Shown: one piece after another, positions 3,285 to 54,889 of the stretch
Layout: each line of letters opens with the position of its first letter
Position numbering within the stretch: the stretch's first letter is position 1
Assembly: GCA_963971535.1 (NCBI GenBank)
Contig: OZ020591.1
Span: 16,912,823-16,976,822, forward strand
Reading direction: 5' to 3'
Origin: Notolepis coatsorum
Taxonomy: Eukaryota; Chordata; Actinopteri; Aulopiformes; Paralepididae
DNA length: 64,000 nt
Program-made: the position numbers and the translations under genes
The notes under the pieces: generated by a model
What the model saw: only the letters and a program-made list of their open reading frames with translations
Told to the model about the DNA's origin: nothing
Database searches by the model: none

Positions 3285-4737
3285 ATAATGAGACAATATG
3301 CAAATAAGATAATACTAATAATTGTCAAGGTTCCCCGTATATGAAATGAAAGTGGCTTGCAACTTTACTGCTGGTAAAATCACTGTTTATTTCTCGTTTA
3401 GCATAGTATTACATTCCACTTCTATAAACAATCAAAGTCCTACCGTAAGAGCCTCATACGGGTCAATTAAACCTTTTTGATTAGTCTTTCCTTCGAGCTA
3501 AGTTGGACTGAACATTTCACTGTCAAAAGCGCAAATGTAAATAAGGTTGCGTCGCAACACGGTTTTCAAAATAAAGGTCACATATACAAATACCTCTCAA
3601 TTCTTATTAAAAAAAGTCCCGGATATACATAAACATTAATTGGCATAGATCTCTATAAACGGCCCAACACATTGATCACTTTAGGCACACACTGAAACCA
3701 GTAACATCACAAATATGAAGCAGGTAATTACCCATACAAATAATAAACCTTTCATCGGGTTATTTACAATAATAATTAATTTGATTTCTAAAGCACTTTT
3801 CATTGTGAAACAAATGTATGCAGAGATTCTTGTCCTCCTGATTAATGCAATGGTGTGTGTGTGTTGTGGTGATCTCATTCAAGGAGCACTACACAAGCGC
3901 GTGCACACACACACACAGTTTGTTGTTTTTGTTCTATTAGTGATTTACACACTTTCTCAGTTGGTTCATTATAAAAGATACAAACCTGAAAACAAACGCA
4001 CTTAAATGTTAAATAAAAGGACCACAGTAATGAGGCAGGAGGAACATATTTTTTTAATAATGGTAAAATTGTAAAAAATTTGCCCCTAAAAAATATTTTT
4101 TGCCCCTAAATTTCTCATTTAGGGGCAAGTGTGCCCCTAGTGAAAAAGCTTAGCGTACAGCCCTGCGGAACGGCGAGGCCTGGTCATTAGGGATGGGAAT
4201 CGATTCCTAATTATCCGATTCCTGGAATCGCATGCCTCCGTGACTATCGATTCCCTTATTGCTGCCAGGTTTTTCCTACAGTTGCGCATAATGTTAGCGC
4301 CACGCATGTAGCCATGGCAGACTATTTGATTCCTTAAGGCTCGAAATTGCCTGGGTTTTGGTCATATGCTCCCGAAATGCTCCCGCTGTTTGGCTGTTTC
4401 TATCTGCAGTGAAAACTACTCCAATGTTTTAGAACCTAGTCATTAACCTAAGATTAGCCGCAGAGCTAACGCTAGCTAACGCTAGCTAACGCTAGCTAAT
4501 CAAGCTCACAGAGAGAGATAAACAGCTGACAGCAGGTAGTAGAAGTACAAATACAATAAAAAGGGTGTGGGGGCTTTAGTTCACATATAATAAGAGACGG
4601 AGAGCGTGTGATGATCACGTTGACTGTTTACTAGTCGGTAAGCCAGGAAGTACTGTGCAACATACAAACATGTCCATGTAGCAACACAAGCCAATACCTT
4701 ACAGGACAGGGGCCCGGGGAGGGAGCTCTGTGCGTGC

Positions 4738-4762
4738 GTGTGTGAGTGTGTGTGTGTGTGTC
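4738..4762. repeat. (GT)n microsatellite
   Basis: A short GTGTGT run inside the hAT element. Confidence 0.85.
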
Positions 4763-4896
4763 TCTGAAAGACCAGAGACAGAGAAGACAGAGGAACCTGT
4801 TGAATGCAACTACGGTTCAATAGATTAAATTAGTTTAAGATATTGAACTGTAGTTACATTCAACAGGTCGTTATTCCATAGATTAAATTTGTTTAA

Positions 4897-6276
4897 AGGA
4901 AAACTCCAACATTTTGGGAAATTAGCTTATTTAACATCTTCCCTGGAGTTAGACAAGAAGATACATACCTTTTTTGTCTCTGTGCGTGCATTTAGCTTTG
5001 GGAACAGTCGCTCCGTTAGCGTAGCTTAGCATCATCACTGGAAGTGGGGGAGATCCGGAGCTTCATCACTGGAAGTGGGGGAGATCCGGAGCCTGACGTT
5101 CCCTTACACTGTATACAGTCACGAAATACACTCCAAATACAACTCCAAAACGTTCATGTAAACATGTTGTGACCTGTGTATTCACCACGTGGAGAAATAA
5201 AAAATAATTGAATTAGACAATTACGTTTTATAAGCAAATATACTCTGAACAATTTTTTGCCTAACCACTACTCTCTGAGCGCAGCCAGTGATTTCAACAT
5301 GTCGTCGTGATTGTTGACATTCTCATTCATTCAAAGGATCCGAACCGATTGAAGTTTATGGATAGTTTGGATACCATGACTTAAAATCCTCTTACCTTGA
5401 CGATTAAAAGCCTCTCCAATTTAGAAAACAGTAATCCAATGGCTGGTATTATACCTGACGCTCTGAGCTAACCGGAGCTAACACAGATCAGGATGGTAAA
5501 GCATATATAATGACTTCCTTTCTGGGGTTTTCAAAATAAAAGTGCAACGTTTATAGCAGCGGAAAACGTTTATTTTGTACATTATCTAACGTTAACACGA
5601 ACCTAAACTAACGTTACAACTAACCTAAAGTTAGTTTAGGTTCGTGTTAACGTTAGATAATGTACAAAATAAACGTTTTCCGCTGCTATAAACGTTGCAT
5701 TTGCACCTTTATTTTGAAAACCCCAGAAAGGAAGTCATTATATATGCTTTACCATCCTGATCTGTGTTAGCTCCGGTTAGCTCAGAGCGTCCGGTATAAC
5801 AATACCAGCCATTGGATTACTGTTTTCTAAATTGGGGAGGCTTTTAATCGTCAAGGTAAGAGGATTTTAAGTCATGGTATCCATAAACTTCAATCGGTTC
5901 GGATCCTTTGAATGAATGAGAATGTCAACAATCACGACGACACGTTGAAATCACTGGCTGCGCTCAGAGAGTAGTTCCGAGTATATTTTCTTATAAAACG
6001 TAATTGTCTAATTCAATTATTTTTTATTTCTCCACGTGGTGAATACATGAACGTTTTGGAGTTGTATTTGGAGTGTATTTCGTGACTGTATACAGTGTAA
6101 GGGAACGCCAGGCTCTGGATCTCCCCCACTTCCAGTGATGAAGCTAAGCTACGCTAACGGAGCGACTGTTCCCAAAGCTAAATGCACGCACAGAGACAAA
6201 AAAGGTATGTATCTTCTTGTCTAACTCCAGGGAAGATGTTAAATAAGCTAATTTCCCAAAATGTTGGAGTCTTCCT
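4897..6276. mobile_element. 1.38-kb TTAA-flanked palindromic element
   Basis: The two halves are near-exact reverse complements, with arms of about 680 bases around a short centre near 5610-5625. The ends AGGAAAACTCCAAC and (inward) AGGAAGACTCCAAC abut TTAA at 4893-4896 and 6277-6280, the target used by piggyBac- and Kolobok-type elements. There is no coding capacity. A half copy lies at 59893-61607 and a fragment at 19788-19951, so it is a mobile family and not a one-off inversion. The superfamily is uncertain because the terminal bases are not the piggyBac consensus I know. Confidence 0.8.
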
Positions 6277-6928
6277 TTAAGAATAAAACAATTCTAAAAA
6301 TAAATTTTCTTTAAGAGAATCTCAAATACATTATTTTATTTAAGTGTAGGCTATTAAATCTTATATATATATTTTTTTACAGTTTTTGTATTTTTCTGAC
6401 ATGGGGGCTCAACAATAAATGACAATCAGAAATGTCAAGTTGCATGTTGTTATTCTAACCAGCTTAGTTCTGTTGCATTTCCAATTTATTTATTTAAATT
6501 ATAAATTTAGCAGGAATCGATAAGGGAATCGATAAAGAATTGGATTGATAAGCAGAATCGATAATGGAATCGTATCGATAAAATCTTATCAATTCCCATC
6601 CCTACTGGTCATACTTCGTAACCCGCTGGGGTGAGTACAAAACAGGCACCAAGCTGGTGGGGCCCGACATAGTTTCAGGACCTTGCACGCACGGCGGGCA
6701 GTAGCCTAGCGGGCAATGGCGAGGAGGACGTCCTCGCTGCCATGAAGGCACTCGCTGTTCGTGCAGAGAACACCATCATGGTAGCTCGGGCAGCCCTGTC
6801 TAACATGCGGCAGGGATATGAAGAGCCCATCCGCCGGTCAAAACGGGTCACAGCTTATTTCGCAGGAGATTTTTATTTCTTTTGAAAAATCTTTCATTTT
6901 GTTCATACTATTCACATTGTCAGTTGAC

Positions 6929-7024: not shown

Positions 7025-8574
7025 GATTGGATTTTAAGAGAGAAGCGCCTTTCTCAGACTCAAGGACACTGTACAAGGAATGACATGTCGTCAGCTTGTG
7101 ACTGCAACTTGTTCCTGTTTGCGGACGACTCAGCCCTGCTGGTCTCTGACAAGAACAAGTTACAGGTTGAAAAAACCCTCAGCTCGGAACTAGGCAGAAT
7201 CTGCATATGGCTCGCTGATAACAAATTATCATTACACATGGGCAAAACAGAGTCCATTCTCTTCGGTTCAAATAACAAACTCAGCAAGACCGACGGCTTC
7301 TCAGTTACAGTGGGTGACAATATTGTCACAAGGAAAGATGAAATTACCTACCTGGGTTCCATCCTAGAGGCTAATCTTTCCTGTGACAAAATGGCATCCA
7401 ATGTAATAAAAAAAGTCAACCAACGAACTCGTTTCTTGTACCGGATCTCCTCTCTGGTAAACATACCCTGAAGACTCTGGCAGGAGCACTCATTCAAGGG
7501 TACTACGACTATGCTTGCACCTCATGGTACCAAAGCACCTCAAAGGCGCTAAAAACAAAATTACAAACATCTCAAAACAAACTGGTCAGACTACTGCTTG
7601 ACCTTACTCCTAGAACCCACCTCACCCCTGCCCACTTTAACAACCTAGGATTTCTTAGAGTAGACGACAGAGTACAGCAACTTGCAATGGGCCTGGTCTA
7701 CAAGATACACTACACGACCAAGGTACCCATGTACATGTCAAAATACTTCCCAAAGGTCAGTGAATACCACGATCACAACACCAGAGGGAGCTCCACAAAT
7801 CATGTTAAACCCAGATTTGGCTCAAACAAGGGACTAAACACGTTTCGCAATTATGCCACATCAATGTGGAACGCCCTACCCAAAGCTGTAAAGGAATGTG
7901 AATCACTACCCACTTTCAAAACCACTCTCAAGGAACACCTACGGGTGACTGCAATTCGAAACTGGCCCCTGTAAATGTCATAACCCAACCCCCTCCAATG
8001 TACAGTAATTTACCTAGTATGGTTGTCAATATTCCAATGTACAGTTTTGCTTGTTTGTACAATGTCCCCCCCCCCAACCCCCTCCAATGTAAATTACCTA
8101 GTATGATTGTCAATATCCCAATGTACAGTTTTGCTTGTACAGGTGTACAGTGTTTTCTCCCCCCAACCCCTCCCTACCTAACCCCCCCCACTCAACCCCA
8201 CCCAACCTCCTCCAATGTACAGTTTCTACGTCAAATGTATATACTCCCTTTTCTGGACTCTTTTTATATCACAAACGGTATTTGCAAATCTGGTATGTCA
8301 TAAATGTATAGATGTAGCAGTACTGTCTATCTGTATGTCATGTATAGGGCTGTCTTAAATACTTCGAAGCTTCGAAGCTTTGTTCGATGGCACAAGCTTC
8401 GAACATTAAAAAAAAATCGAAGTTAAAAGAAAAATCTAAAAAAAAAATTCAAATTTTTAATTTTTACTTCGGTGTGTGTGTGTGTGTGCATGGGGCCATT
8501 GGGTGGGGCCGGGGGACAAATACACTGCTCAGCTCAGCTCAACCCAGCTCAGCACTGCCCAAATTATATCATCA

Positions 8575-8745
8575 CTATTGCCTGTTTGAAGGATATCATC
8601 CTCAAACACATATACACCACCTACACGCCTATTCTCAGTCCTTGCCCCACAATGGTGGAATGAAACCACCCCAGTTAGGACAGCCGAATCCCGTCCAATC
8701 TTTCGGGGTCGACTAAAGACGCACTTCTTCAACCATTATCTGAAA
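8575..8745 (+). pseudogene. LINE C-terminal relic carried inside hAT A
   Basis: One frame reads a typical LINE C-terminus: a conserved tryptophan pair in VLAPQWWN, then TAES, then RLKTHFFNH near 8725. The downstream part of the element holds the fish LINE/SINE tail motif GTCGCTTTGGATAAAA (near 9840). The same block is at 34700-34895 in the second hAT A copy, so the capture predates their spread. Confidence 0.6.
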
Positions 8746-8798
8746 TAAAATTAAAAAAATAAAATTAAAAAAATCTAACCCTAACTAACCTTACTGTC

Positions 8799-9730
8799 AT
8801 AATAATAATAATAATACTTTGTTTTATATAGCGCCTTTCAAAGGACCCAAGGTTGCTTTACATAAGGGGGGGGGGGGGGGAGATAACAAATTAACAAACA
8901 TAGTGGACAGACACAACATATACATATAAAGTGAGAAAGTTAGGGGTTGAAGGCCAGGTTGAAGAGGTGGGTTTTGAGCAGATTTTTAAATGAGTCCAGA
9001 GTTGGGGCGGTGCGGAGTTCTGCGGGGAGGGAGTTCCAGAGGGTGGGAGCTGCCACACTGAAAGCTCTGTCCCCGAACGTCCGTAGTCTGGTTCGGGGGA
9101 TGGAGAGCTGACCAGTGTCCGTGGATCGCAGGGACCGTGACTGAGTGTAGGGGTGGAGGAGGTCAGTGAGGTACTGAGGTGCCAGGGCGTGAAGGGATTT
9201 GTAGGTGAGCAGGAGGGTTTTGTAGGTGATGCGGGATTTGATGGGGAGCCAGTGGAGGTGGATGAGGATGGGGGTGATGTGCTGCCAGGGTTTGGTGCGG
9301 GTTAGAACCCTGGCAGCTGAATTTTGAACATACTGGAGCCTGTCCAGGGTTTTGCTTGGGACCCCGGACAGGACCCCGTTGCAGTAGTCCAGGCGGGAGG
9401 TGACGAAGGCGTGGATGAGGGTCTCAGCTGTGGTGTCGGAAAGTGATGGTCGGAGTCTGGAAATGTTTCGGAGGTGAAAGAAGGCGGATTTGGTGAGGGA
9501 ATTGACATGGGATTGATAGGAAAGGGTGGAGTCCAGGATAACGCCCAGGTTGCAGACCTTAGCTTAGGGGATGGGGAGATGGAGCAGCCGTCAATGTTGA
9601 GGGTGAGATCCCCAACCTTCCGGAGCAGGGCCTTGGGTGCCACAACCATGAGCTCGGTTTTATTGTTGTTGAGTTTGAGGAAATTAGATGACATCCAGGT
9701 TTTTATTTCGTGAAGGCATCGACAAGGTCA
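8799..9730 (-). mobile_element. L2-like LINE, 5'-truncated, inserted in hAT A
   Basis: On the minus strand it encodes the end of a reverse transcriptase (MSSNFLKLNNNKTELMVV, near 9690), a frameshift near 9560, then the C-terminal region with LDYCNG and a final LLKTHLF. The 3' end on the left has AAT repeats, ATATAGCGCCTTTC and a poly-G tract at 8866-8880. The short copy of hAT A lacks this segment and reads CTTACTGTCCTAATAAAC straight across. A TGTC duplication flanks it. Confidence 0.8.
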
Positions 9731-10797
9731 TGTCCTAATAAACTAACCTACACTGTAACACGCAACACTTTGATGAATATTGTTAATCAGCTGATAGAGT
9801 TGTATCCTTCCTGATGACCTGTCGTACAGAACTTGTAAGTCGCTTTGGATAAAACCGCCAGCTAAATGCCTAAATGTAAATGTGAATGTAAATGCCTTGT
9901 AGAATTCCACACATAAGAAAGAAAGATACTGGGATGAATAAACAAAATAGGAAATAAAATGTAGAAATGCATGCAATACATAAATAAATATGAATCTATA
10001 TGAAATAGAACATTTAGATAAGGTGCTACTGAGATGTTTTGGTGAGTTCTTTGTTTTTTTGTGGAAGTAGCCCTTCTTAAAAATGCATGAACATTCACTG
10101 ATAATTGGTCTGTAGTGGAGTCTACAAGGTCTACATTGCCGGACCATGTAGAATCCGGACCTTGTAGACTGACATAATTCTGTGCATAGTTTAGTCTACA
10201 CAGGCCATATTTCAAATAATCAAAATCTTACTTCATTCATCTTAAACATTCTTGATTTGGGGGATTGGTAGTTCCCATGAAATCTGAAGTTGTTCAAACG
10301 ACAACAGCGATCCACCTTGAATTTAATCACACAGCCTAGGGCTGGGCGATATGGCCTAAATATGATATCACGATATTTTCTGACCTTTCGGCGATACACG
10401 ATACGCATCACGATGTTTTTCTTTTTTTCCCCAAAATTCATTATGATGCTTACCAAGACAGTATTTGAGTTTGCAAGCTAACATTAAAGACAAAATAAAA
10501 TACCCATGCATTTAGCATTTTTATATAGGGCTGTCAGTTTATCGCGTTAATTAGATTAATTAATTACACAGCAAATTATCGCGTTATGAAAATTGACGCA
10601 AAATTAATTACAGCCGACCTATATTTACTTTAGACAAGTGGCAAATCGGTGCGCTTTTATTTTGAAATCCACGCTTGAGTTGGGCGTATTAAACTTGGCC
10701 CATTGAATGACCCGTAGCCTACTTGATCGTCACTTCACACATGCGTCGTCTATCAAACAAAACAAACACACAAAGGAATTAGCTCAGCTGGAACAAG

Positions 10798-13384
10798 ATG
10801 TCAGCATCACCCGAGGCGATACTCCTGGGACCTATGAACGGCAAGTTCAATTTCAAAAAGAATATAGATGGGACAGTAAACAAGACCATTGTAATATGTA
10901 GCTTATGTCAAAAAGAATTTGCGTATCACCGAAGCTGCTCTAGTCTAACGTATCACATGAACGCTAAACATGTCCAGGCAAGTTGTTCGAGCAGCTCCAG
11001 TGTAGCTAACGTTAGCTCCAGAGCAACTCGCACGCTTCGTCAAACCACTCTTGGAGAATTACCGTTAGGCAAACGGTTGAGTAAATCCACCACAGACAAA
11101 CTAACCAACAGCGTCGCGAAGTGGATAGCAAAATATTGTAGGCCAATAGCTATAGTGGAAGATAAGGGTTTAGCGGAGTCATTTCGAATAGCGTCGTCTG
11201 ACCCAAATTACAAGCTACCCTCGAGAGCTACAGTGATGAAAAGGATCCACAACATGTATGACACAGAGAGGGAGGCGAGGGAAGAAGTGTTGGCACGGGC
11301 TGGCCCAATGGCCCTAACGGGTGATCACTGGACGTCGGTGGGCAATCATAATTATTTGGGTGTCACAGTGCACTTGATCGATACTGAGTGGAAACTGCAA
11401 TCATTTGCATTAACGGTGACCAAAACTGTGGGCCGCCATTTCGCCGATGCGTGTGCTGAACAGTTCAACACCGTAATAGAGGAGTGGAATATAAAAGATA
11501 AAGTCACATCTATTGGGACTGATTCCGCCCGTAATATGATAGCAGCAGCGCGCTATATGCCGTTCCAGCACATGCCATGTGCTGCACACGTGCTGCAAAG
11601 AACCATCACAGTCTCCCTTGAGGACAGAAGCCTTGACACCACCCTGGCAAAGTGCCGCAAGATTGTAGGCCACTTCAAGCACAGCCCTGCCAGTACAGAA
11701 GAACTGCAGCAGCAGCAGACTGCCCTCGGACAAGCAAAAGAGCCCATGATACAAGATGTATCCACAAGGTGAGACTGTTTAACTACCTGTTGTATGCTAG
11801 GGTAAATTTAGTGTGTGTGTGTGTTTATTTCTTTGTATTCTGTACAATTGCATCATGCTGCATTAACAACCCCCAGTGGGACTAATAGTTATTTTATTGA
11901 ATTGGAAGGTGGAATTCGACACTGGCCATGATCTCACGGTACCTGAGGAACCAGGAGGCTGTGACTGCCACTTTGGCCCAACAGAACCACAAGCTGTCCA
12001 TGCTGACCCCCACAGAGTGTGACAAACTGAAGAAGCTGGAGCTTGTACTTGAGCCCTGCAGGTAAGTGTCTCTCCCTCTCTCTCTCCCCCCATACACCCC
12101 CCTCCTCTCTCTCTCTCCCCCATACACACACCTCACACCCCACTCTCTCTCTCCCATACACACACCTCACCCCCCAATCTCCCCCATACACACACCTATC
12201 TCTCTCCCATACACACACCTCACCCCCCCCTCTCTCCCCCATACACACACCTATCTCTCCCATACACACACCTCACCCCCCCTCTCTCCCCCATACACAC
12301 ACCTATCTCTCTCCCATACACACACCTCACCCCCCCCCTCTCTCCCCCATACACACACCTATCTCTCCCATACACACACCTCACCCCCCCCTCTCTCCCC
12401 CATACACACACATATCTCTCTCCCATACACACACCTCACCCCCCCCCTCTCTCCCCCATACACACACCTCACCCCTCTCTCTCCCATACACACACCTCAC
12501 CCCCCCCCCTCTCTCCCCCATACACACACCTATCTCTCTCCCATACACACACCTCACCCCCCCTCTCTCCCCCATACACACACCTATCTCCCTCTCATAC
12601 ACACACCTTCACCTCTTTCTCTCTCGCTCTCTTGTTTCACTGCAGGTATGTGACTGAGCTCCTTGGAGGGGAAACCTACGTCTCATGCTCTGTGGTGCTC
12701 CCCGCACTCTGCCACCTAAACCGCATCATGGACCTCAACGAGGAGGATCCGGGCTACATGGTAAAGTTCAAGGCCAGCTTCACGAAGGACCTGGACGCAC
12801 GCAAAGCGACCCTCAACAACAGATGGCTGAAGCTGGCTACAGCCCTCGACCCGCGATTCAAGGACTTGAAGAGCGTACCAAAGGACGAGAGGGATGAGGT
12901 GTGTGTGTGAATGAGAAGACCAGTGTTAAGTCCTTAGGCTGTCATGAAAAGTCCTATGCAACTAATTAATTGTCCCTCTTATTAGGTGTGGACCTGGCTT
13001 AAAGAGATGCTGCCAGGACCAGAAGCAGACAAAGCTGCTCCACAAGCCACAGAGGACGAGCCACCAGCGAAGAGGACCCTCCTCCTGCTGTCTTCAGACT
13101 CTGATTCAGATGAAGTCAGGGTACTGTCAGGACAATTAGACCTCTACAAAGCTGAGCCCAGCATCGGAATGAATGACTGTCCACTGGAGTGGTGGGCAGC
13201 TCACGCAAAAGCCTATGGACAGCTGTCTCCTCTTGCTCGCAAATATCTGGCTACTCCTGCTACCTCTGTGCCATGTGAGAGGCTATTTTCACTTGCAGGT
13301 CACATAGTCCAAAAGAAGAGGGCAGCCTTACTCTCAGACAATGTAAACAAGCTTGTTTGTCTTAGCAATTGGCTCAAGGAATAG
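10798..13384 (+). CDS. hAT-superfamily transposase with BED zinc finger (4 exons, 591 aa)
   Basis: Exons are 10798-11768, 11909-12061, 12646-12898 and 12986-13384. All three introns are GT-AG, and phases 2, 2 and 0 keep one open frame of 591 codons from ATG to TAG. Residues 34-58 form a BED-type finger (C34, C37, H53, H58). The hAT catalytic acids are visible as D176 in LTGDHWTS, D242 in GTDSARNM and E557 in SVPCERLFS. RWNST begins exon 2. The last about 80 residues are the hATC dimerisation region (LARKYLATPATSVPCERLFS). The product should bind the element's ends and cut and paste it in the nucleus. The family is close to ZBED-like hATs. No stop or frameshift was seen. It could be an active, recently active or domesticated gene; its position between transposon ends favours a transposon gene. 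Confidence 0.85.
12066..12632. repeat. Pyrimidine-rich minisatellite in transposase intron 2
   Basis: Irregular units of about 30 bases, built from CTCTCTCCC, CATACACACACC and TCACCCC. They fill most of the 584-base intron. The open frames it gives on both strands are low-complexity artefacts. The run ends in a normal polypyrimidine tract and acceptor TGCAG at 12641-12645. Confidence 0.9.
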
Positions 13385-13403
13385 ATTTGTCATGCATACA
13401 GTA

Positions 13404-14619
13404 GACCCTGCACTAGACCCTGCACTAGACCCTGCAGTCATGCCCCAGACCCTGTAGTAGACCCTGTAGTCATGCCCCCAGAAACTGTAGTAGACCCTGT
13501 AGTCATGCCCCCAGACACTGTAGTAGACCCTGTAGTCATGCCCCCAGACACTGTAGTAGACCCTGTAGTCATGCCCCCAGACACTGTAGTAGACCATGCC
13601 CCCAGACACTGTACTAGACCCTGTAGTCATGCCCCCAGACACTGTACTAGACCCTGTAGTCATGCCCCCAGACCCTGTAGTCATGCCCCCAGACACTGTA
13701 GTAGACCATGCCCCCAGACACTGTACTAGACCCTGTAGTCATGCCCCCAGACACTGTAGTAGACCCTGTAGTCATGCCCCCAGACACTGTAGTAGACCAT
13801 GCCCCCAGACACTGTACTAGACCCTGTAGTCATGCCCCCAGACCCTGTAGTCATGCCCCCAGACACTGTAGTAGACCATGCCCCCAGACACTGTACTAGA
13901 CCCTGTAGTCATGCCCCCAGACACTGTAGTAGACACTGTAGTCATGCCCCCAGACACTGTAGTAGACACTGTAGTCATGCCCCCAGACACTGTAGTAGAC
14001 ACTGTAGTCATGCCCCCAGACACTGTAGTAGACCCTGTAGTCATGCCCCCAGACACTGTACTAGACCCTGTAGTCATGCCCCCAGACACTGTACTAGACC
14101 CTGTAGTCATGCCCCCAGACACTGTACTAGACCCTGTAGTCATGCCCCCAGACACTGTACTAGACCCTGTAGTCATGCCCCCAGACACTGTACTAGACCC
14201 TGTAGTCATGCCCCCAGACACTGTAGTAGACCCTGTAGTCATGCCCCCAGACACTGTACTAGACCCTGTAGTCATGCCCCCAGACACTGTAGTAGACACT
14301 GTACTAGACCCTGTAGTCATGCCCCCAGACACTGTAGTAGACACTGTACTAGACCCTGTAGTCATGCCCCCAGACACTGTAGTAGACACTGTACTAGACC
14401 CTGTAGTCATGCCCCCAGACACTGTAGTAGACACTGTACTAGACCCTGTAGTCATGCCCCTAGACCCTGTAGTCATGCCCCCAGACACTGTACTAGACCC
14501 TGTAGTCATGCCCCCAGACACTGTACTAGACCCTGTAGTCATGCCCCCAGACACTGTAGTAGACCCTGTAGTCATGCCCCCAGACACTGTAGTAGACACT
14601 GTACTAGACCCTGTAGTCA
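13404..14619. repeat. 33-bp minisatellite downstream of the transposase, block 1
   Basis: Tandem copies of a 33-bp unit (halves CCCTGTAGTCATGCCCCC and AGACACTGTACTAGA) begin about 20 bases after the transposase stop. Shorter CACTGTAGTAGA steps and unit deletions give higher-order variation. The unit length is a multiple of three and lacks stops in several frames, so long false proteins appear on both strands. The CCTGCACTAGACCCTGCA sequence at 13408-13437 looks like the seed of the array. Confidence 0.95.
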
Positions 14620-14930
14620 GTATATTAATATTTGAATAGTCATATTTGGCACTATATCGTCGAGTTGGACGTAGTCTATTAAGCTAATAATAGTCTGTTA
14701 ATATATAGTGCTTCGTGCGGTGAGAATACTACCGTAGTCAGTACCCCATCGTTTCGGGCAGAGAACTGGCTGCTTATCCAGGGTGGTTGACCCCACGTGA
14801 AGCTGCACCCGAGGAGCCCCAGAGCCGACGAGCGAGTGGACCTGTATACCGGATTATTCTGCCGACGACAGCCCGCCTTCCCAGGCACGGATTATGCTTT
14901 GTATACTTTGATTATTCCATGGATAAAGAC
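14620..14930. other. Non-repeat 311-bp block inside the minisatellite
   Basis: Unique-looking sequence interrupts the 33-bp array, which resumes at 14931. It begins AT-rich (GTATATTAATATTTG) and becomes GC-rich (GAGGAGCCCCAGAGCC). No target duplication, TIR or clear ORF was seen. It could be a small insertion, or original element sequence around which the repeats expanded on both sides. Confidence 0.6.
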
Positions 14931-15406
14931 CCCCGACACTGTACTAGACCCTGTAGTCATGCCCCCAGACACTGTAGTAGACCCTGTAGTCATGCCCCCA
15001 GACACTGTACTAGACCCTGTAGTCATGCCCCCAGACACTGTAGTAGACCCTGTAGTCATGCCCCCAGACACTGTACTAGACCCTGTAGTCATGCCCCCAG
15101 AAACTGTAGTAGACCCTGTAGTCATGCCCCCAGACACTGTACTAGACCCTGTAGTCATGCCCCCAGACACTGTAGTAGACCCTGTAGTCATGCCCCCAGA
15201 AACTGTAGTAGACCCTGTAGTCATGCCCCCAGACACTGTAGTAGACCCTGTAGTCATGCCCCCAGACACTGTAGTAGACACTGTACTAGACCCTGTAGTC
15301 ATGCCCCCAGACACTGTAGTAGACACTGTACTAGACCCTGTAGTCATGCCCCCAGACACTGTAGTAGACACTGTACTAGACCCTGTAGTCATGCCCCCAG
15401 ACACTA
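14931..15406. repeat. 33-bp minisatellite, block 2
   Basis: Same unit as the first block, about 14 copies, with the same alternation of GTACTAGA and GTAGTAGA. It ends at CAGACACT just before AGCTTGCTGTGGGC. Confidence 0.95.
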
Positions 15407-15429
15407 GCTTGCTGTGGGCTGTTTTGATT

Positions 15430-16130
15430 TTTGAGGATACTGTAGCTTAGTGTAAACTGTTATTGGCTGTATCAGCAACAAATGTTACCTTATTGAGAGG
15501 TATGTTTTCATTCATTTTATTTTATTCAATTTAATAAAATTGATTTCTAAAGCATTCTTCACTTGCAGGTCACATAGTCCAAAAGAAGAGGGCAGCCTTA
15601 CACACAGACAATGTAAACAAGCTGAAGCTTGTTTGTCTTAGCAATTGGCTCAAGGAATAGATGTCATGCATACAGTAGACCCTGTAGTAAACCCTGCACT
15701 AGACCCTGATTTTTGAGGATACTGTAGCTTAGTGTAAACTGTTATTGGCTGTATCGGCAACAAATGTTACCTTATTGAGAGGTATGTTTTCATTCATTTT
15801 ATTTATTTATTTATTCAATTTAATAGAATTGATTTCTAAAGCATTCTTCACTTGCAGGTCACATAGTCCAAAAGAAGAGGGCAGCCTTACACTCAGACAA
15901 TGTAAACAAGCTGAGGAATAGATGTCATGCATACAGTAGACCCTGTAGTAGACCCTGCACTAGATCCTGCAGTAGACCCTGCAGTAGACCCTGATTTGAG
16001 GATACTGTAGCTTAGTGTAAACTGTTAGCTGTATCAGCAACAAATGTTACCTTATTGAGAGGTATGTTTTCATTTTATTTATTTTATTTATTTAATAAAA
16101 TTGATTTCTAAAGCATTCTTCTTGGTGTAT
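15430..16130. repeat. Tandem ~283-bp duplications of the transposase 3' end
   Basis: GAGGATACTGTAGCTTAG recurs near 15433, 15715 and 15998, a period of about 283. Two of the units contain a copy of the last-exon segment TCACTTGCAGGTCACATAG, AAAAGAAGAGGGCAGCC and GACAATGTAAACAAGC (near 15555-15660 and 15848-15920), followed by TAGACCCTG repeats. These copies of the transposase C-terminal coding end are partial and would not extend the protein. Confidence 0.85.
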
Positions 16131-16363
16131 TTAATTGATCAGTCACCTGCTACAATAATGTAATGTCCTTGAATTTTAAATATTTATATGAATATGAAAT
16201 ATAAATATGCGATTAAAATGCGATTAATTAGATTAATTAATTACAAAACCTGTAATTAATTAGATTAAAATTTTTAATCGCCTGACAGCTATTAGATTTA
16301 GATTATTGGATTATTAGATTATATATTGCATATATTTAGCAATGAGATATTATATGATTTAGA

Positions 16364-16535
16364 TATGAAATATGATGAATTGAAAATGGGGGACCCTGAT
16401 GTAAACAAGACGAAAGTCTTTCTCTGGTCTGCATCCTCCAGTCCGCTGTTGACTGTTGTTGTATTGAGCTGTACTGTATTGTACCCATGCTGCAATCTTT
16501 TAATAACGTTCTCATTCATTCAGTCGGCAAACAGA
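16364..16535 (+). mobile_element. 3' fragment of the L2-like LINE, inside hAT B
   Basis: It matches 17480-17546 plus 18484-18540 (GGGGGACCCTGATGTAAACA, then TGAGCTGTACTGTATTGTAC) and ends in ATTC repeats. It is a short 5'-truncated insertion of the same LINE family that hosts hAT A. Confidence 0.75.
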
Positions 16536-17550
16536 ATAATTTTGATTGACAGTCGCGTCTGCCAATTACGTCACATCGCTTGCACCCGCCCTGCTGTTCT
16601 TAGCACCAATCGGAAAGCGTGTATTTATTTTTTACTTCCGCCATTGGAGAGCTCAATGACAATAACAATGGCAGCTCGCCGCGGCCGACGTTTAGCTTTT
16701 AGCTCCGCAGAAGGACTAAACGACTGGAGGCATAATGATTTTACTGCAACGGATGTTATAATAAAAGCCTTTCCATACATCTGTCTGATTGAAAACTTTA
16801 TTAACAGACCGCAGAATGGGCACAACTGAGTCAGCACGGGCTGAGATATGAACGAGCTTGCTATATCTAGGTCGACCTCGGTCGGCACTATGTAAATACG
16901 CTGATGTTATTGAAAGTGTAACTATATAGAGACCTCTGAACAGGTCCTGCATTATTATTATTATAACGTTAATGCCACAAAACGAATGCCTTTGTTATCA
17001 TAAGTAGTCACTTTTGATGCAGTAGTGTGTGTGGGGCGGCGCTGTTCAAAAGTGTCAACGTGTGGACCAGATTGACGCGACACAAGCCTCTTGGGCAAAA
17101 CATCACGATATCCACGATACGTTTAAAAAGTGTATCGTTAATGAACTGTACCCGATATTTATATAATATCGTCATATCGCCCAGCCCTAACACAGCCGTG
17201 TTGGCTGCGTCACAATCACGAAAGGGGCTACTTAATTCATTAATCCAATCCACTTTATTTATAGCGCACATTTAAAAACAACAAAGTTTACCAAAGTGCT
17301 GTACAAGTCCCACAACATAAGATAAAAAAAAAATATATATATATATATATATTAAAAAAAAAATTATAAAAAAAAAAAATTAAATTCGAAGCTTCGAATT
17401 AAAATCGAAGCTCGGCCCCGAAGCTTCGATTGCCAAAAAAAAAATTGAAGGTCAGCCCTAGTCATGTATGTCATATGTCCTGATGAATTGAAAATGGGGG
17501 ACCCTGATGTAAACAAGACGAAAGTCTTTCTCTGGTCTGCATCCCCTTAA

Positions 17551-22446: not shown

Positions 22447-23397
22447 TAGGGATGCCCCGATCGATCGGCCACCGATCGTTATCGGCCGATACTCAGTATA
22501 AATATGCAATCTGTGAATTCCGATAATTAGTCATATTCGCCGATAGCGGAAACCGATCAAGCGAAGCTCTCACTCGCTGTCTGTCTCAGACACACACGAC
22601 CTGCAAACTGCCGCTGCTCCTCCTCCCTAGCCCCGCCCGCCCCCGTGTAGAGTTTGTAAACAAAGAGGTGCGGCTCCTCTGCTCGAGTCTGTAGTGCACT
22701 GCATTCGACCTGCGCTAACGTTAGCTACCTAGCTATCGTTACTGTTTAAACAAAATTACCCAGTCAACTATTCACGTTTAGTAGGCATTGTCTAACGGTA
22801 TTTAGCCGGCTAGCTACCGATAGCTCCTGATATCAACAAATAATCCAGAAAGTCTAGTAGTTCATGTTCATACCTCAGTTAGCTTGCGTTAGCTGACGTT
22901 CGTTTACTGTTCAAAACGAAATGTCCCATTGAACTAAAGTTCTGTCTTAACGTCATCTAGCCGGCTAGCAGTAGCTACAGATAGCTCTTGATATCAATGT
23001 CTTATAACATTGATTTAATGCGTATTCGAGCTGAGGGCTTGCTGAATGTGAAACGACCAAAGCACTTAACGTTACCAATGGGGTCCCGCTGCAGCGCCGG
23101 AGAATCCTTTTGAGCTGGGCTACTAGAGTACACACAGACAGTGGAGCTGTTTGCAGATAGTGAGCATTTTGACTTGTTGCGTGGTGGCGATGTCTTGCAG
23201 TCGCAGATAATACAAGTACAAGTCTAATTATATAATATATATATTTTATAAAAAAAAAAAAAAAAAAAATTTATATAAAATAATTTTTAATTTCTTTTTA
23301 ATCAAAAACAATCGGTATCGGATCGGTATCGGCCGATATGGATCACGACGATCGGTGATCGGTATCGGTGGCAAAAAACGTGATCGGGGCATCCCTA
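22447..23397. mobile_element. hAT element, TIR TAGGGATGCCCCGATC, TSD ATAGACAT
   Basis: The left end TAGGGATGCCCCGATCGATC and the right end GTGATCGGGGCATCCCTA are flanked by the exact duplication ATAGACAT at 22439-22446 and 23398-23405. It is rich in CGGCCGATA and GATCGGTATCGG subterminal motifs. A poly-A tract of about 18 lies near 23252. Non-coding. Related ends occur at 49699-50059 and near 33904. Confidence 0.9.
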
Positions 23398-25805: not shown

Positions 25806-27445
25806 CAGGGGAGGAAACTCACTTTTTGGCTTACCAGCCAACTGGCGAGTAGATGATTTTTTTTACCAGCCAAATGATTTTTTTACCAGCCAAAAATAAA
25901 TCGCTAATTGTGATAATTACTTCTTTGTATGTCTTCGTCTAAATTGATTTTCAATCATAGTAATAATAATCACACCGTGTCTCTACTCTTTAAAATATTT
26001 ATTAGCATAAAACATTAATAAGTGTCTCTACTCTCCACAATATTAGCATACAACATGTATTAATCACACTGTCTCTACTCTTCAAAATATTAGGATATCA
26101 CATATTAACATGAAAGAGGGAACTATTCTGGACTGGGTTGGGCTGAACTGGGCCGTGAAAGATGCTGGGCTGGACTGGGTTGGGCTGAACTAGGCAGTGA
26201 AAGATGCTGGGCTGGACTGGGTTGGGCTGAACTGGGCCGTGAACGATGCTGGGCTGGACTGGGTTGGGCTGAACTAGGCAGTGAAAGATGCTGGGCTGGG
26301 TTGGGCTGAACTAGGCAGTGAAAGATGCTGGGCTGGGTTGGGCTGAACTAGGCAGTGAAAGATGCTGGGCTGGACTGGGCTGGTCTAGGTTGGACTGGGT
26401 TGGGCTGGTCTAGGTTGGGTTGGGCTGGTCTAGGTTGGACTGGGTTGGGCTGGTCTAGGTTGGACTGGGTTGGGCTGGTCTAGGTTGGACTGGGTTGGGC
26501 TGGTCTAGGTTGGACTGGGTTGGGTTGGACTGGGTTGGGACCGTTGGACTGGTTTGGGCAGGTCTAGGTTGGACTGGGCTGGGCAGTGAAAGAACCAAGC
26601 ATTTCACTGTAATGTAATAGCTAAATAAAACAACTTGAACTTGACTTGTTACATTTGCACTCTGGTTGGATACCAAACGTATTCTGGTTGTGCTGTATGA
26701 TGACAATACATTGGAACCGAATCTCATGACAAGTTGACAACGCTAGGGGTTCAGCAGGTGTATTCTGAATGCCAAGTGTATGACAACATCACCGTTGTGA
26801 AGGGCATATGGGGGGGAAACCCGGTAATAATAAAATGTCACTCGGCTGCATTTAAGCAAAGCCGCTCAGTATAGTCCACTATGTTGAATGCGCGTTATGG
26901 TAGCTTGATGCTAGGTAGCTAGCCGGCTAATGCTGGTTAGCCTCACGTCCACTTGTCATTCTCATCCGACTCGAAGGAGAACGTCGTGTGCTGTTGTTCG
27001 TCCCCATGTCATACCGCACTGATATCCGAAAGCGACGACTCTACATGCAATTATTTTCATCCACAATGTGTTTTTGGTGTGTCTACATTGTCAAGCCGGT
27101 GACAGGAGTTTGTAGGTCTGCGCGCAGTGGTCTGTCCACTTCCCCTAGATGCGCGACATCTTCTAGAAAACGAGTGTTCATTGGAGGAGCTTAGAGCGCA
27201 TCTGTACAACGATGATGTTCATTGGTTATGGTCGGATTATTATGAGGCACAAATGGGAAGAATCAAGGGGGGAGTCAGATTTCGGCTTGTGCCAGTGAGC
27301 GAATCAGCAGATTGCAGAATGATTTTTTTGTTTTGTTTTGTAATTACTAGTACTCGCCAGACTGGCGAGTGCTCTTCATGAATCACTCGCCAAACGTAAA
27401 AAATACTCTCATTTGGCGAGTAAAGTGGCCTAATTTCCTCCCCTG
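25806..27445. mobile_element. hAT element in BEL, TIR CAGGGGAGGAAA, TSD ACGACCAC
   Basis: The left end CAGGGGAGGAAACTC and the right end (inward CAGGGGAGGAAATTAG) are flanked by the exact duplication ACGACCAC at 25798-25805 and 27446-27453. Subterminal TACCAGCCAA (left) and TGGCGAGT (right) motifs resemble those of the hAT at 35960-36814. The interior holds a GGGCTGGACTGG minisatellite and no transposase. Confidence 0.9.
26130..26585. repeat. Hierarchical minisatellite (TGGACTGGGTTGGGCTG)
   Basis: The first half has units of about 40-60 bases, GGGTTGGGCTGAACTAGGC then AGTGAAAGATGCTGGGCTGG. The second half has shorter units, TGGTCTAGGTTGGACTGGG. It lies wholly within the hAT. The strand is strongly G-rich. 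Confidence 0.92.
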
Positions 27446-35856: not shown

Positions 35857-38064
35857 TGTAACTGAGGGGTACAATTCCCTGACTATTAAAGAGTATGATA
35901 TATTAAACCACTACTAGTTATGTACTTTAATTACTGGCCATACAGTACATGAATATATACAGGGAACAAACTTAACTTTTTGACTTACCAGCTATTTGGC
36001 TGGTAGATTTTAAAAACTACCAGCCAGGCAGATTTTTTACCAGCCAAAAATTTAAAATAGCTTTTTAGTATATCGCCATGTGTTATTATTACTATATAAT
36101 ACTCTCATATGCTATTTTCAATTAATATCATAAACAACATAAGGAATATTAGCATAATTTTGAGTGGACTGAAGGAATGAGTCAGCGTTAATAGTTTTAA
36201 ATGCAAATAATTTATTGAAACATAGAAGTGGGGTCGGGGACACACACTGTTTCAACTCACCACCCCCGCATCATATTGTAGTCTAGTCTGTCTTCAAACT
36301 TCCACTCCTCTCGAAACCTTTTTATATTTGAATATCAACATTATCTGTGCATCCTCAGTAATCCTCAGTTTACTACAATATACTCCTCTCCTGAGTCCTG
36401 ACTAGTGACTTCATCGTCTTTCCAAACGCACGCACACACACAGAGAAAGGGAGAGTGCCCCCCCCCCCCCATTTCCCCAGTCCACACTGTCTGCTGTTCT
36501 CTATGGCTCTGCCGCTGATCAGGATTAGCTTGTTAGCTTACGCTAACATAACGTTCATTTCGGGCGATATGGGCATAAAGGAATGGCGACGATGCAATGC
36601 ATGTTAGATGCATTTTACCCGTTGTGAAAAGAAGAAAAAACCACAGACTTATTTCGGCTCGCAAAATAGGCGCACTGCTGGGTAGCTCTGCTCTCAGGGA
36701 ACAAACTTAACTTTTTGACTTACCAGCCATTTGGCTGGTAGATTTTAAAAACTACCAGCCAGGCAGATTTTTTACCAGCCATTGGCGGTTGGCTGGTACT
36801 TATTTTGTTCCCTGAATATATATGGTGAACACCCACACAAGAATACGGCATTGACACATAAAGTACTATTTGGAGGGTATTTATTATTATTAAGCAACGT
36901 TAGGTTACAGATTGAGAATTAGGCTTGCGCTTGTATGGCGAAGAACACACGTAAAGTCAGTCAAGAGCGTAAGTCAATGAGAATAGTATGAATACTAGGA
37001 TGGGTCTAAACTGACGCCACCTGTGGTATAGCAATTACATAGGGCACACTGGTACCAGCTGGAGACACTGGGGGGTTCCCTCCGGGGTGTAAGGCCGGTA
37101 GGGGTAGAGGAATGTTCGGGTACAAAGTCTGGGTCAACGAGGAATAACGAGGCTCCAGATACAGGAGCCGGTGCATGTACTCCCTTGATCAGCAGACAAA
37201 GCAGCAGCTATAATCCAGTATGCTCGAATAGCATTGACGACAGCTAGCCAGCCTCTTCCTAGAGGCGGGCCCGAGTGATGATCCTCACGGGGGTAAATCC
37301 CAAACGACAGTGGGATCGACGGTTCTCTGCTCCAGCGGTCACGGTCCCAAAGCAATATAATCCAACCAGAAATGGTTCTGCAGTCGCCGGTGTAGGTTCT
37401 CCGGTGTACATATCCAACGGTTCTCGTCTAGGACTCCTCGGGTGGGGGCACGAGTTTAGGCCGCCCAGCCTGGATAAGTGCGCTAGCTATATACACGACG
37501 AACCGGTGGTAATGCTGGTCACTGAAGAACTGTAGCCGCACGATACACTATAAATGATAGACTATTACTTCACATTAGAATAAGTCGCACTCAACGTTAC
37601 TGCGTTAAACTCTGACACTAGCAATCTATTCGCACGCGGTTCTCAAGGCTCTATTTAGAGGCAAAGTGGCTCACTTCACTGCACGTTGTCTTGTGGTGAA
37701 GGCATCAAGGTTTGAACTGAACAAGTGACTAAGTGCTGCTGTTTCCACCTGCGCCGTATTTATACGTAAGGTGAATTATCTAGTGCCAACCTCAGTTCTG
37801 TCTCGTATTACTGCGCAGACTCTGGACATGTTGAGACATGCCCGGAGTTGCCTTTGAACTTGCCGTTGGGGGCTTGGTCGTTGGCGCCTAGGGGTCGCTG
37901 TCCAATAGGAGAGCGAATATTCCTCTGGTTTGTACCCAGGTAAAGGGATATTCCGTGTATATATACAAATAATATACAAGGGATATCAAACGATATACAA
38001 ATATTATACAAGGGATATCAAGCAATAAATATATATATTCGGTTTAATCTGACCCTTTGTAACA
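35857..38064 (-). repeat. 3' LTR of the minus-strand BEL/Pao element
   Basis: It is nearly identical to 42130-43478 once the hAT at 35960-36814 is set aside. The small open frames at 37134-37979 recur at the same place in the other LTR and are not genes. Confidence 0.92.
35960..36814. mobile_element. hAT element in the BEL LTR, TIR CAGGGAACAAA, TSD AATATATA
   Basis: The left end CAGGGAACAAACTTAAC and the right end (inward CAGGGAACAAAATAAG) are flanked by the exact duplication AATATATA at 35952-35959 and 36815-36822. The first about 85 bases recur near 36697-36780, an internal copy of the left end. TACCAGCC motifs link it to the hAT at 25806-27445. The other LTR lacks it, so it inserted after the BEL element did. 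Confidence 0.9.
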
Positions 38065-46496: not shown

Positions 46497-47113
46497 TAGG
46501 GCTGGGCGATAAAACGATAACGATAACTATCGCGATAAATTATTTCCTCGAAATAAACATGAAACGTGGTCGCAAAGTTTCGATATATCGATTTTCCAAG
46601 CTTGGATATGAGCACTAACAACCATCAGTGAAGGAGATGGCCGATAGCGGAAGGATACCCGGAAGGAGACGCGGAGGTAGGACTCAGTAAACAAGGCTGG
46701 CTAGGGCTAATTAGCTTGCACGGTGCTATTTTACAGTTTACCTGCCGAGTTGGTGTGTGTTTTGAATTCTGAGGGTAACTGTTATAGTAGTGTGGGGTAT
46801 ACGGTGGACGTCGTTGCAATGAATTGGGCGGAACAGAGTATTTTAGGGTCATTTTTAGTACATTGTCATGAGATACTCCGCTTGCTTTGGCTAACTGCTA
46901 ACGTGCGCGGACTGATGACGACATCAACTCGACTCTCGAGACATTCACAGCAGCAAAACAAGTCTATTAATAGCCCGTCCATCGGCGCCGGGCATAATAA
47001 GTTAATTAAACTTGACAGACATTATATCGACGATAATTATCGATATCGAGTTATATGAAAATAATTTTATAATTTTATCGCGATAACGTTTTTGGCCATA
47101 TCGCCCAGCCCTA
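46497..47113. mobile_element. Short hAT element, TIR TAGGGCTGGGCGATA, TSD AGTTGGGT
   Basis: The left end TAGGGCTGGGCGATAAAACG and the right end CATATCGCCCAGCCCTA are flanked by the exact duplication AGTTGGGT at 46489-46496 and 47114-47121. Same TIR class as hAT B. Non-coding; GATAACGATAACTATCGCG motifs are subterminal. Confidence 0.9.
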
Positions 47114-50911: not shown

Positions 50912-51125
50912 CAGGGGCAGGGCTAGGGGGTGGCTACTTGGGCTCAAGCCCCGAATGTTTTCTGAAAAGCCCCGAATCTATTTAAAAAAAAAAAAAAAAA
51001 TTGACAATTCATCCTTGTTACATGAAAATATGTTTGCACCAGATTTAGCAGAAGCTAATTTCCATCTGTGGTCTATCCAGCTGCTAACTGTATTTGAGTG
51101 AGTTAAGTCTTAATTAAGTCTTAAT

Positions 51126-51258
51126 TCTTTCACCTTAGAAACATAGCTAATGTACGGCCATTTATAAATCAAAAGGACGCTGAAAACCAGATCCATGCCT
51201 TTATCTCAAGCCAACTCGACTACTGTAATGCACTCCTTACCGGCCTTCCGAAAAAATA
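51126..51258 (+). mobile_element. L2-like LINE scrap
   Basis: It reads LRNIANVRPF and then QIHAFISSQLDYCNALLTGL, a conserved block of the L2-type reverse-transcriptase C-terminal side. Short and isolated. Confidence 0.7.
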
Positions 51259-51387
51259 CGATGATAACTATTTTATTGCAATGCACTATTGCATTATTTT
51301 ATTCTATTTTACTAACTATTTTATTGCACTGCACTATTTTACTTTGTATCAGTGATAATCAAACCGTAAACAAAGATGCATATTAAC

Positions 51388-51682
51388 GTTAGGTTATGGC
51401 TATAACCAAGTTCTGTTAGTTAGGGGTGACGCTTGGCATCACTACTGCACTCCCTCGCGTACGTGCACGCGTACTGAATAAAATTCCACAAAATATACCT
51501 TTAATACCAGTATTAGTCTGACCACACCCCTCATCAGCTTACCTTCATAAGCAGGTGTGTGGTCACCTGCTCTCCTCCTTCCCAAGCTTTCACCACAAGG
51601 TGAGGTCAAGGGCTGCAGCGGCCGTCTGATGCCAAGCGTCACCCCTAACTAACAGAACTTGGTTATAGCCATAACCTAACGT
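51388..51682. repeat. 295-bp block with ~55-bp inverted ends (DIRS-like terminus)
   Basis: Both edges carry TAGGTTATGGCTATAACC, AAGTTCTGTTAGTTAGGGG and TGACGCTTGGCATCA in opposite orientation. Between them lies the terminal repeat seen at 56563-56862 and 61613-61974. The right edge continues straight into GTTCTGTTCCGTTAGGGGC. Confidence 0.75.
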
Positions 51683-54600
51683 TCTGTTCCGTTAGGGGCT
51701 CTGCTTGGCATCACTACTGCACAAAGGGAGGCCAAGCGGAGCCGCTGGCTGACAAATACACCCCGCTGACAGCCCCCCACAACCATCAGAACAGGGAGGG
51801 CCGAGCCCCCCCGACCCCCCCTAATGGAGGGCATCCCCCCTATTAGGGGCTTCACGGGAGGGCGACGGACCCGACCGTGCGAAGAGGCACTCAAGCAACC
51901 CAACGCACAGGGCGAGCAGACCGTGGCTTGACCCCACGACTACACCCACGCACAACCCGCATGCCACCCGGGAACGAACGTAGGAAACAACCTCGTCACA
52001 GCCCCCAGAATCACGGGATCAAGGGCAAACCCAACCCCGTGGCAAGGCCGTAGCAGCGGAGCGTGAAGGAAGACCCAGACCCACCAAAAGGACTGGACTC
52101 CCTGGAATGGGGGCCCGGAGAAGTCCATGATGCCAGCATCAAGACCCCACCAGGTGGGCACCTAGTGACCCCGCCCCCCACATCGCCAGCGTATTCGGAC
52201 AAAGGCCCCTCAGCCGAGCGGGCCCTGTCCTCCCCAACAGCACACCGCCTGGAACACAGGCCCTGCAACAGGCAGACAGCATGGTCATAACACACAAGAG
52301 TTAACCAACGGAAGCAGGCAGTGCACCGGGGAAAAATACCAGGCAACAGGCTGTCAACCCAAGCCTGGAAACTGCGGACGAGGCAGGCGCCAGAAAGGAC
52401 AGCTGAAAACAGCCGCCCCGGCGGAAGGGGCGTATGCTGGCGTTGTCGCATAACCAAGCCTTTAAACAGCATGTCAGAAGAGGGATCCCTAGACCACTCG
52501 GCCCCTGACAGCTGCCCACAGAAAAAGCCCATACGATCGGCAGACGTCATGAACGTGCAGGGGCACCCTCAACCGGAGAACCGGGAGTTGACACTGCAGC
52601 AACACACCAGAGAACCAACCACCCAGGCATTACCCCATGCAATGGTTGGTCCCATAACCCCTCAGGAAAGAAACCCCAAAACACACCTGCGGCACCGCCG
52701 CAGCCCGCGTTCCGGGTTCCAACAGGGCTATCCCGGGCCTACGGGTCAACGAGCATTACCCCGGACCGGGCCCGGTGATACGGGGGGCACAGGGTCCCCC
52801 GAGGAGGTTAAAACCACCCCAACAGGCCCCTCAGCGCCAAGCGCAAGAGAAGAGCGTAAAAATGGAAGACCAGCCCCAGCACCCCGCACTCGGTATTCCC
52901 AGGAGGTCACCCAACCAAGTACCAACCAAGACCAACCCGCACAGCGGTCGAGATCCGACGAGATCGGGCGCGTACAGGTCGGCACGGCCGTAAGCCATTA
53001 CGACAGTGCAGAATACAACGCACCTAACAAGGGTCCCAAAACGCCCAACCCTGTGACACCCGGACCGACCTAGCATTTTTCCCCCTGAAAAAAACCCAAG
53101 TCCCTCAGGGTACCAGAACAGCAGATCTGCATCCCCAGCGGACAACGGGTGCAACTGATCTGGACCAGCGCGACCAGAACCAGTCCCGTGCCCTAATCAC
53201 GCCGACCTGCCAACCCCAGGAGAAGGGGCAGATATGCGTGTTGATCCCAACATAAAAAAGAAGGCGCCACCCAGACGTGTCGGTATGACCCGCGCCCGGT
53301 GGCCCACCCCTAGGGCGTGAGACCCTTCCCCATATGTCCAGACCCATTCCGTCATCATCCCCTGACATGAACGGGAACCCATCGATAACCACACAGGGTG
53401 TCGGAAGAGGAAAAACCCCCATCCCAATTGCTCCATAAAAACGCTGTTTCACCCAAGCAATCAAGGCGCGCTTAGTCAGCCAATGGCCCAAAAAGCACAT
53501 CCTGAGCTAGCACTATGTGTGCGTTTGGACATACCCACATCAACAATAGGCCGTTTAGACCACCATATTGAATCCCCAAGACGCCCAGGGAAACGACGAG
53601 AGGGGCGAGATGCAATCAACTCCATGAATGAATGAATGAAAAAATGTACCCAACAGACTGCAGAAAGGGTACAACCCAGTACGGCAATACACACAATAGG
53701 TTAAGGGGAGGCAGACCTGAGAAAGACGTTAGTCTTGTTTCCATCAGGGACCCTCATTTCCAATCCATCAAGACACATTCAACTCTTTATAAAAATAAAG
53801 AAAAGGCATCACCCGTATGACCCAACTGCACAGCTGGGAGTAAAAACCCTGTTTTTCACATGATTTCAATCCAGTCACTCCTTTTAAACAGAGTGTAAGA
53901 CCAGACCCTCCCAGAAACACCATCCCACATGAGACTATGGTCAAGAAAAAGATATGTAAACTGTGAGACACGTGACCAATTGACTCAAGTTTGACACATA
54001 AACCGGGCGCAGCAGGACTGTGAGCCCTGCGCCCAACCTCGACATCTTTAAGACACCAGCTCATGGAAGGCGTCGCCATAGCAACAACGCTACAACGGGC
54101 GGGGAAAACCTACCGGATCCTGTCATGTAACAGGAGTCGGTAGAATACCCCTTCCCCCCCCCCCCCCCCCCCCCCCTGCCAAGCACTGGCCTGGCCCTGA
54201 CTGGCTCAGCAGAAGAGATAAAAAAAAACCTAAACCAATCAAGTGGGAAAGGAGGGGTTTATTCGACACCCCCTCCCGAAAACACACCCTTTATCCCTAC
54301 ACACAGAAAAACAACCGTAGCCATCTTGAAAAACCTCCGGTAGAAAGCAAAGCATAGCGAAGCTAATACAATGCCCGCTACCCACAAAAAGTGTAAAAGG
54401 TTTTACAACAAAACACAAGTCGCCTGTGCGTGAATCCTATACCCGTTGCCTATGTCATACATAGGGAAAAACGCTGAACGAGAGTAAACGGCTAGGCCGT
54501 GAAATGTGTGCGTACGAGTATTACTGCAACTAAACAACACAGCATTGTGAAAACACATATACTTAGTTAAAGCAATGGAATAACACCAGTTCTAACTGCA

Positions 54601-54889
54601 TGTGGAGCATCAAGCTAAATAGAACCTATTACCGAGTGTACGTTGCAGACCTTGCTTAACCTCGTAACACAACACAACTCACCCCACAACGTAAAAAAGG
54701 GCAGATTCATATATACACAACCCCACCATATGATTTGTTTGAAGAAACACACAGTTTGTTCGGCCAAAACACAGTCCCCCTCCATCGGGGAACTTTTTTT
54801 ATTTACTAACTAAATAATGTCAAGGCACAAAATCATAGAGGGGCCGGGGAGGGTGTAGGAGAGGGGACACAGAGGGGAAAAAGTCACTC
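51683..54889. other. 3.2-kb interior of the DIRS-like element, no recognised gene
   Basis: 51700-53600 is C-rich on the plus strand, with long but overlapping open frames on both strands (for example 52011-52550 minus and 52321-53073 plus) that show no known domain. 54154-54176 is a run of 23 C. 54180-54889 is more AT-rich and empty apart from GGTTTTACAACAAAACACAA-type simple sequence. Confidence 0.5.
53622..53765 (-). mobile_element. 3' fragment of the L2-like LINE inside the DIRS-like element
   Basis: GAATGAATGAATGAA tail, then TGTACCCAACAGACTGCAGA and GAAAGACGTTAGTCTTGTTT, matching the complement of 17500-18540. It is a 5'-truncated insertion. Confidence 0.7.

Follow-up and report, generated by a model that had tools for sequence, protein, structure and literature searches.

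The window analysed here is a stretch of 64,000 nucleotides from the genome of Notolepis coatsorum (C23:16912823-16976822; genome 3.42 Gb in 4,787 contigs), and it contains a four-exon hAT transposase gene within an element that itself lies inside two further hAT-type elements. Its main features are:

8345-17460, plus strand: outer host hAT-type element, ends TAGGGCTGTCTT and GTCAGCCCTA, perfect 8-bp duplication GTCATGTA on both sides
10337-17189, plus strand: middle host hAT-type element, ends TAGGGCTGGGCGAT, perfect 8-bp duplication ACACAGCC on both sides
10526-16289, plus strand: inner hAT element, the subject of this study, 5,764 bp, its left end common to all aligned copies
10526-10612, plus strand: left end of the inner element, starting TAGGGCTGTCAG, about 87 bp of it common with non-coding elements
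10798-11768, plus strand: exon 1, with the BED finger (C34-C37-H53-H58), D176, D242 and CxxH at 261
11769-11908, plus strand: intron 1, 140 bp
11909-12061, plus strand: exon 2, its start within TRWNST
12062-12645, plus strand: intron 2, 584 bp, for the most part tandem repeat
12646-12898, plus strand: exon 3, GT-AG spliced frame
12899-12985, plus strand: intron 3, 87 bp, giving an in-frame stop if retained
12986-13384, plus strand: exon 4, with E557, the hATC domain and the stop codon
13415-15405, plus strand: minisatellite array, presumed 3' UTR, broken by a non-repeat segment at about 14620-14930
15429-16121, plus strand: tandem unit of about 289 bp carrying the end of exon 4, 2.5 copies, with CACTTGCAGGTCACATAG at 15558 and 15847
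16206-16289, plus strand: right end of the inner element, without the final ACTA of other copies

The borders of the inner element follow from the ends of its aligned copies, which its right end matches up to CTGACAGC. Complete copies begin with TAGGGCTGTCAG and finish with CTGACAGCACTA, these terminal inverted repeats being complementary at 11 of 12 positions, and after them the 8 bp of the left flank recur. An earlier note on this DNA had described the gene at 10798-13384 as buried three elements deep; gene and threefold nesting both hold, the whole element (5.76 kb) being over twice as long as that span. Its further statement that almost everything around the gene is decayed fails for the direct host, the middle element, of which seven compared sequences are only 0.4-1.6% apart. 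Within the outer element an open frame of 207 codons (8940-9563, minus strand) presumably resembles the end of a LINE reverse transcriptase, and a scan of 8300-17500 for RNA families gave none at gathering scores.

Joined at GT-AG junctions, the four exons give a hAT transposase frame of 591 codons and a stop. The best match with a solved structure is the Hermes transposase (E 6.7e-22), aligned over most of the protein length, and in this alignment the TRWNST motif spans splice junction 1, which therefore has independent support. D176 (GDHWT), D242 (TDSARN) and E557 (CERLFS) align to the catalytic residues of Hermes, which we take to be D180, D248 and E572. In Pfam the hATC region matches Dimer_Tnp_hAT (E 4.6e-18) and zf-BED lies just above its cut-off (20.9 versus 20.6 bits), with DUF659 matching below cut-off only. 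Splicing, Pfam and the Hermes alignment thus bear out the gene model first proposed from the letters alone (four exons, 591 codons, BED finger, three catalytic acids and hATC), and no stop arising from a different exon structure was found. Scanning the left 275 bp for promoters with a tool that models bacterial ones found nothing. Downstream of the stop codon the first AATAAA lies at 15533, with the minisatellite between the two. Copies with both ends in view hold between 6 and 39 occurrences of the word GTCATGCCCCC, and they range from 4,084 to 5,982 bp in length (6,319 bp in the composite copy L025). As such counts and lengths differ among near-identical copies, repeat number varies faster than sequence, a pattern that repair or recombination within the tandem array would be expected to produce. 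The non-repeat segment near 14620-14930, a candidate for captured host sequence, is found in 15 of the 19 two-ended copies. The duplicated exon-4 ends are candidate alternative 3' exons, for which a CAG acceptor context is all that was seen.

The genome search for near-identical copies that the earlier note had proposed was productive: the coding stretch is matched over its full length, at an identity that rounds to 100%, by at least 40 sequences, the window included (best 40 of 753 candidates), and one 32-mer of exon 1 is found without mismatch at 226 places (128 forward and 98 reverse, against none for the reversed control). Of the 28 loci fetched first one (L004) is the window itself, and another 27 copies enter the alignment of 10526-13400 (2,875 bp each), from which two partial rows were left out, the non-coding element L018 at 1629 and the fragment L025 at 2328. 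These 27 copies, which are biased to youth in being drawn from the best 40 of 753 candidates, hold 13 substitutions in total and 0-2 each, namely 4 in the 5' stretch, 3 in coding sequence (where ranking by a coding query both favours young copies and lowers the count), 1 in intron 1 and 5 in intron 2. Several of them (L002, L003 and L005) show no difference from the window, and a 1-bp difference at 11797 in intron 1 divides the 27 copies 19 to 8. Frames are open in all 27, and the protein is that of the window in 25, with S333L and G508R in the other two. In a second sample of eight exon-1 stretches outside the 40, chosen by the exact 32-mer and so with a milder youth bias, seven have 0-2 substitutions in 971 bp. 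Three of these seven have T225T in common, and the eighth stretch, L049, has an exon-1 deletion of about 60 bp and 63 differing positions, of which the 25 listed are deleted bases. The 5' stretch, which lies outside the ranking, has 4 changes in 27 x 272 bp, or about 0.05%. Animal mutation rates are about 1e-9 to 1e-8 per site and year, and combined with this divergence they suggest, if a clock is assumed, an age no greater than tens to hundreds of thousands of years.

These counts bear on why the gene is intact, for which the earlier note had offered youth, recent activity or selection. The 226 exact words and the 0-2 substitutions per copy speak for the first two, and selection is not needed. 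We ascribe the intact state of the gene to the recent origin of this copy. The proposed check by non-synonymous change likewise reveals no constraint, with 4 of 6 coding changes non-synonymous against 77% among random changes, although the number is tiny.

That the copies arose by transposition is indicated by their flanks. In 18 of the 19 gene-bearing copies with both ends in view the 8-bp flanks are identical, and the nineteenth (L017) lies inside a TA repeat with its duplication shifted out of register. Among 26 flanks (18 two-ended and 8 left only, with L017 and the window excluded) position 2 is T in 24 and position 7 is A in 25, so that the targets fit the Ac-family pattern nTnnnnAn. When eight joined empty junctions were searched, L009, L023 and L024 were matched continuously across the junction at 98-100% by uninterrupted paralogous sites (L023 with one additional match at 88%), the other five being uninformative, with no match among the best 40 of 6,213 candidates. 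Some loci are also broken. At L028 the match ends near 15744, and no right end follows within the 7.2 kb examined past the left end. L025 (2328-8647) is a composite: its first left end leads into part of the gene, a complete second left end lies in intron 1, and the one right end is flanked by sequence that matches the flank of the outer left end (one duplication). We read L025 as a self-insertion followed by recombination between right parts. At L026 two copies lie head to tail with a short AT repeat between them.

The window copy is itself damaged. In all seven compared genomic copies of the middle element (L042-L048) the sequence continues without a break across the site where the window carries the inner element. 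Judged against these and complete inner-element copies, the window copy has lost 17 bp at its right junction, made up of the terminal ACTA of the inner element (4 bp), the entire 8-bp duplication and 5 bp of host sequence. The deleted right junction leaves the window copy with no 8-bp duplication. As hAT transposases need both tips and the right one is lost here, this copy is probably immobile in cis and a dead end, and its enzyme could act in trans.

The ends of the element are far more widespread than its gene. A 32-bp left-end word has 3,925 exact occurrences in the genome (1,957 forward, 1,968 reverse; control 0), and among the first-listed 100 such places the exon-1 word stands at the expected distance in 8. 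As a non-coding sample 12 other left ends were fetched from the start of C1. All 12 match the left end of the element over 69-88 bp (91-99%), and the interior of the element found no match in them beyond short or repeat-like pieces. The right end is matched in nine, over 81-125 bp in eight and over 35 bp in L040; L029, L031 and L037 have no true right end within the fetched stretch. Perfect duplications flank eight of the 12 (L038 has 5 of 8 bases), as well as the non-coding element beside L018, so that 9 of 13 sampled carriers have both ends and a perfect duplication, although the flanks of L029-L031 are alike, as are those of L039-L040, and these insertions are possibly non-independent. Their typed flanks have T at position 2 in 11/12 and A at position 7 in 9/12 (one of the 13 excluded). 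Ten two-ended carriers measure 553-826 bp and differ pairwise by 2.0-9.9%, and with 2-10% between them against under 0.1% they are far older than the gene-bearing copies seen. From these shared ends and duplications it is well supported that such non-coding elements were moved by a transposase of this family, and the simplest reading is that earlier family members were the movers. The suggestion that this gene could move non-coding hATs gains ground genome-wide and finds no support in the window, where BLAST of both ends found no further copies, a word search with 2 mismatches gave 5 matches against 4.8 expected by chance, and no terminal-repeat and duplication pair has these ends.

Several other repeats were observed alongside. 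The window holds other inverted-end pairs at 4188-6604, 22447-23397, 25806-27445, 35960-36814 and 46497-47113, with duplications of 7-8 of 8 bp, the last sharing its ends with the middle host element, and a weaker pair at 50912-56984 (10 of 14 end bases). A SINE-like piece recurs in the window at 16372, 17483, 18474, 33653 and 53625, and also occurs within the 806-826-bp subgroup of non-coding carriers, whose members are 2.0-4.7% apart, the shorter carriers mostly differing more. At G000:C1:24448325-24581847 four exact left ends lie on the same strand at a spacing of 43.7-44.9 kb, which is perhaps a large tandem duplication.

Taken together, our observations suggest that the locus very probably holds one copy of a young autonomous Ac-type hAT DNA transposon family. 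We assign it to the hAT superfamily by its 8-bp duplication, terminal inverted repeats, hATC domain with catalytic acids, and BED finger, and its placement in the Ac family would follow from the target pattern nTnnnnAn and from Hermes as nearest solved structure. This is a known kind of element; what is unusual is the number of intact near-identical copies. The family has probably spread recently through the genome in dozens, probably hundreds, of near-identical copies; its recent activity is well supported and its present activity likely. Genomic sequence directly shows the gene anatomy, the ends and duplications, the near-identity of dispersed copies, the empty target sites and the ends held in common with non-coding elements; we infer from it that the gene is expressed and spliced, that the enzyme is catalytic and recognises the non-coding elements, and that movement is recent or continuing. 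In the mechanism that we propose, the 591-residue BED/DDE/hATC transposase would bind the left and right ends of its own element, excise it and integrate it into 8-bp targets of the form nTnnnnAn. A tentative extension is that an autonomous form came back into a genome where thousands of old non-coding elements already carried its ends, either because a hidden master copy was reactivated or through horizontal arrival, that it is now transposing, and that it has set those old elements moving again. This reading predicts the gap between under 0.1% and 2-10%, and the gene-bearing family may instead have persisted steadily at a low level. A pattern scan of viral contigs for relatives, as a possible vehicle, gave one pattern match and none that was confirmed.

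Alternatively the burst might already be over, with an expansion dating back tens of thousands of years and a family that is now silenced. We consider this possible although on balance doubtful: the private changes in copies (such as the 4 substitutions in the 272-bp 5' stretch) agree with it, as does the fact that current movement is deduced, whereas the complete identity of several copies to the window over 2,875 bp and the same protein in 25 of 27 argue against it. A transposase kept by selection at its locus as a domesticated, ZBED-like host gene among relics would be in keeping with the open frame, with the conserved catalytic and BED residues, and with a lower frequency of changes in coding sequence than in the 5' flank of the top-ranked copies (3 versus 4; Fisher p 0.008, with denominators for 25 and not 27 copies). 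Yet a lower coding rate is expected where copies are ranked on the coding query itself, and we reject host-gene selection as the cause of intactness, and hold it very improbable, given dozens of dispersed near-identical copies with their own duplications and the predominance of non-synonymous changes. Least probable is that the copies are segmental duplications or assembly artefacts with no transposition, as the small unplaced contigs that carry some of them and the 44-45 kb spacing of left-end matches at one C1 place might suggest, since borders are clean, copies lie on many large contigs, and for copies with both ends in view the differing flanks and duplications refute it. We favor a young and probably still mobile family. 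Its many near-identical copies with defined ends and targets open it to direct activity testing, and since a very young coding element occurs here together with thousands of older non-coding ones, the family lets mobilisation be studied. Known active vertebrate hATs have become gene-transfer tools.

Among known systems are the active fish hATs Tol2 (medaka) and Tgf2 (goldfish), which have a multi-exon gene and make 8-bp duplications. The present element would resemble them as another autonomous fish hAT, and unlike them it has many more near-identical copies. Active hATs are described as rare in vertebrates in a passage of PMC4890040. As a text string, the end sequence TAGGGCTGTCA is contained in 14 papers, and none of the titles listed for them concerns transposons. 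The housefly element Hermes, of the Ac family, shares the catalytic acids, CxxH, TRWNST and hATC in alignment as well as the 8-bp target pattern nTnnnnAn, which passages of PMC10368747 give for Hermes and passages of PMC8961557 for the Ac family as its mark. However, Hermes is distant, and the element here differs in its four exons, long 3' minisatellite and other terminal sequence. Human ZBED1 (2ct5) has a similar BED finger (E 0.0038), and ZBED genes descend from Ac-family hATs according to part of PMC3606216, but ZBED1 is a domesticated gene whereas the element here is mobile and multicopy. Lastly, hAT MITEs such as BuT2 share ends and duplication type with an autonomous partner (in the portion of PMC3942097 on which we draw), similar to the short non-coding elements found here, which have both ends and the duplication type of the coding element. 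Unlike BuT2 MITEs, the carriers in this genome number in the thousands and are far older than the coding copies sampled.
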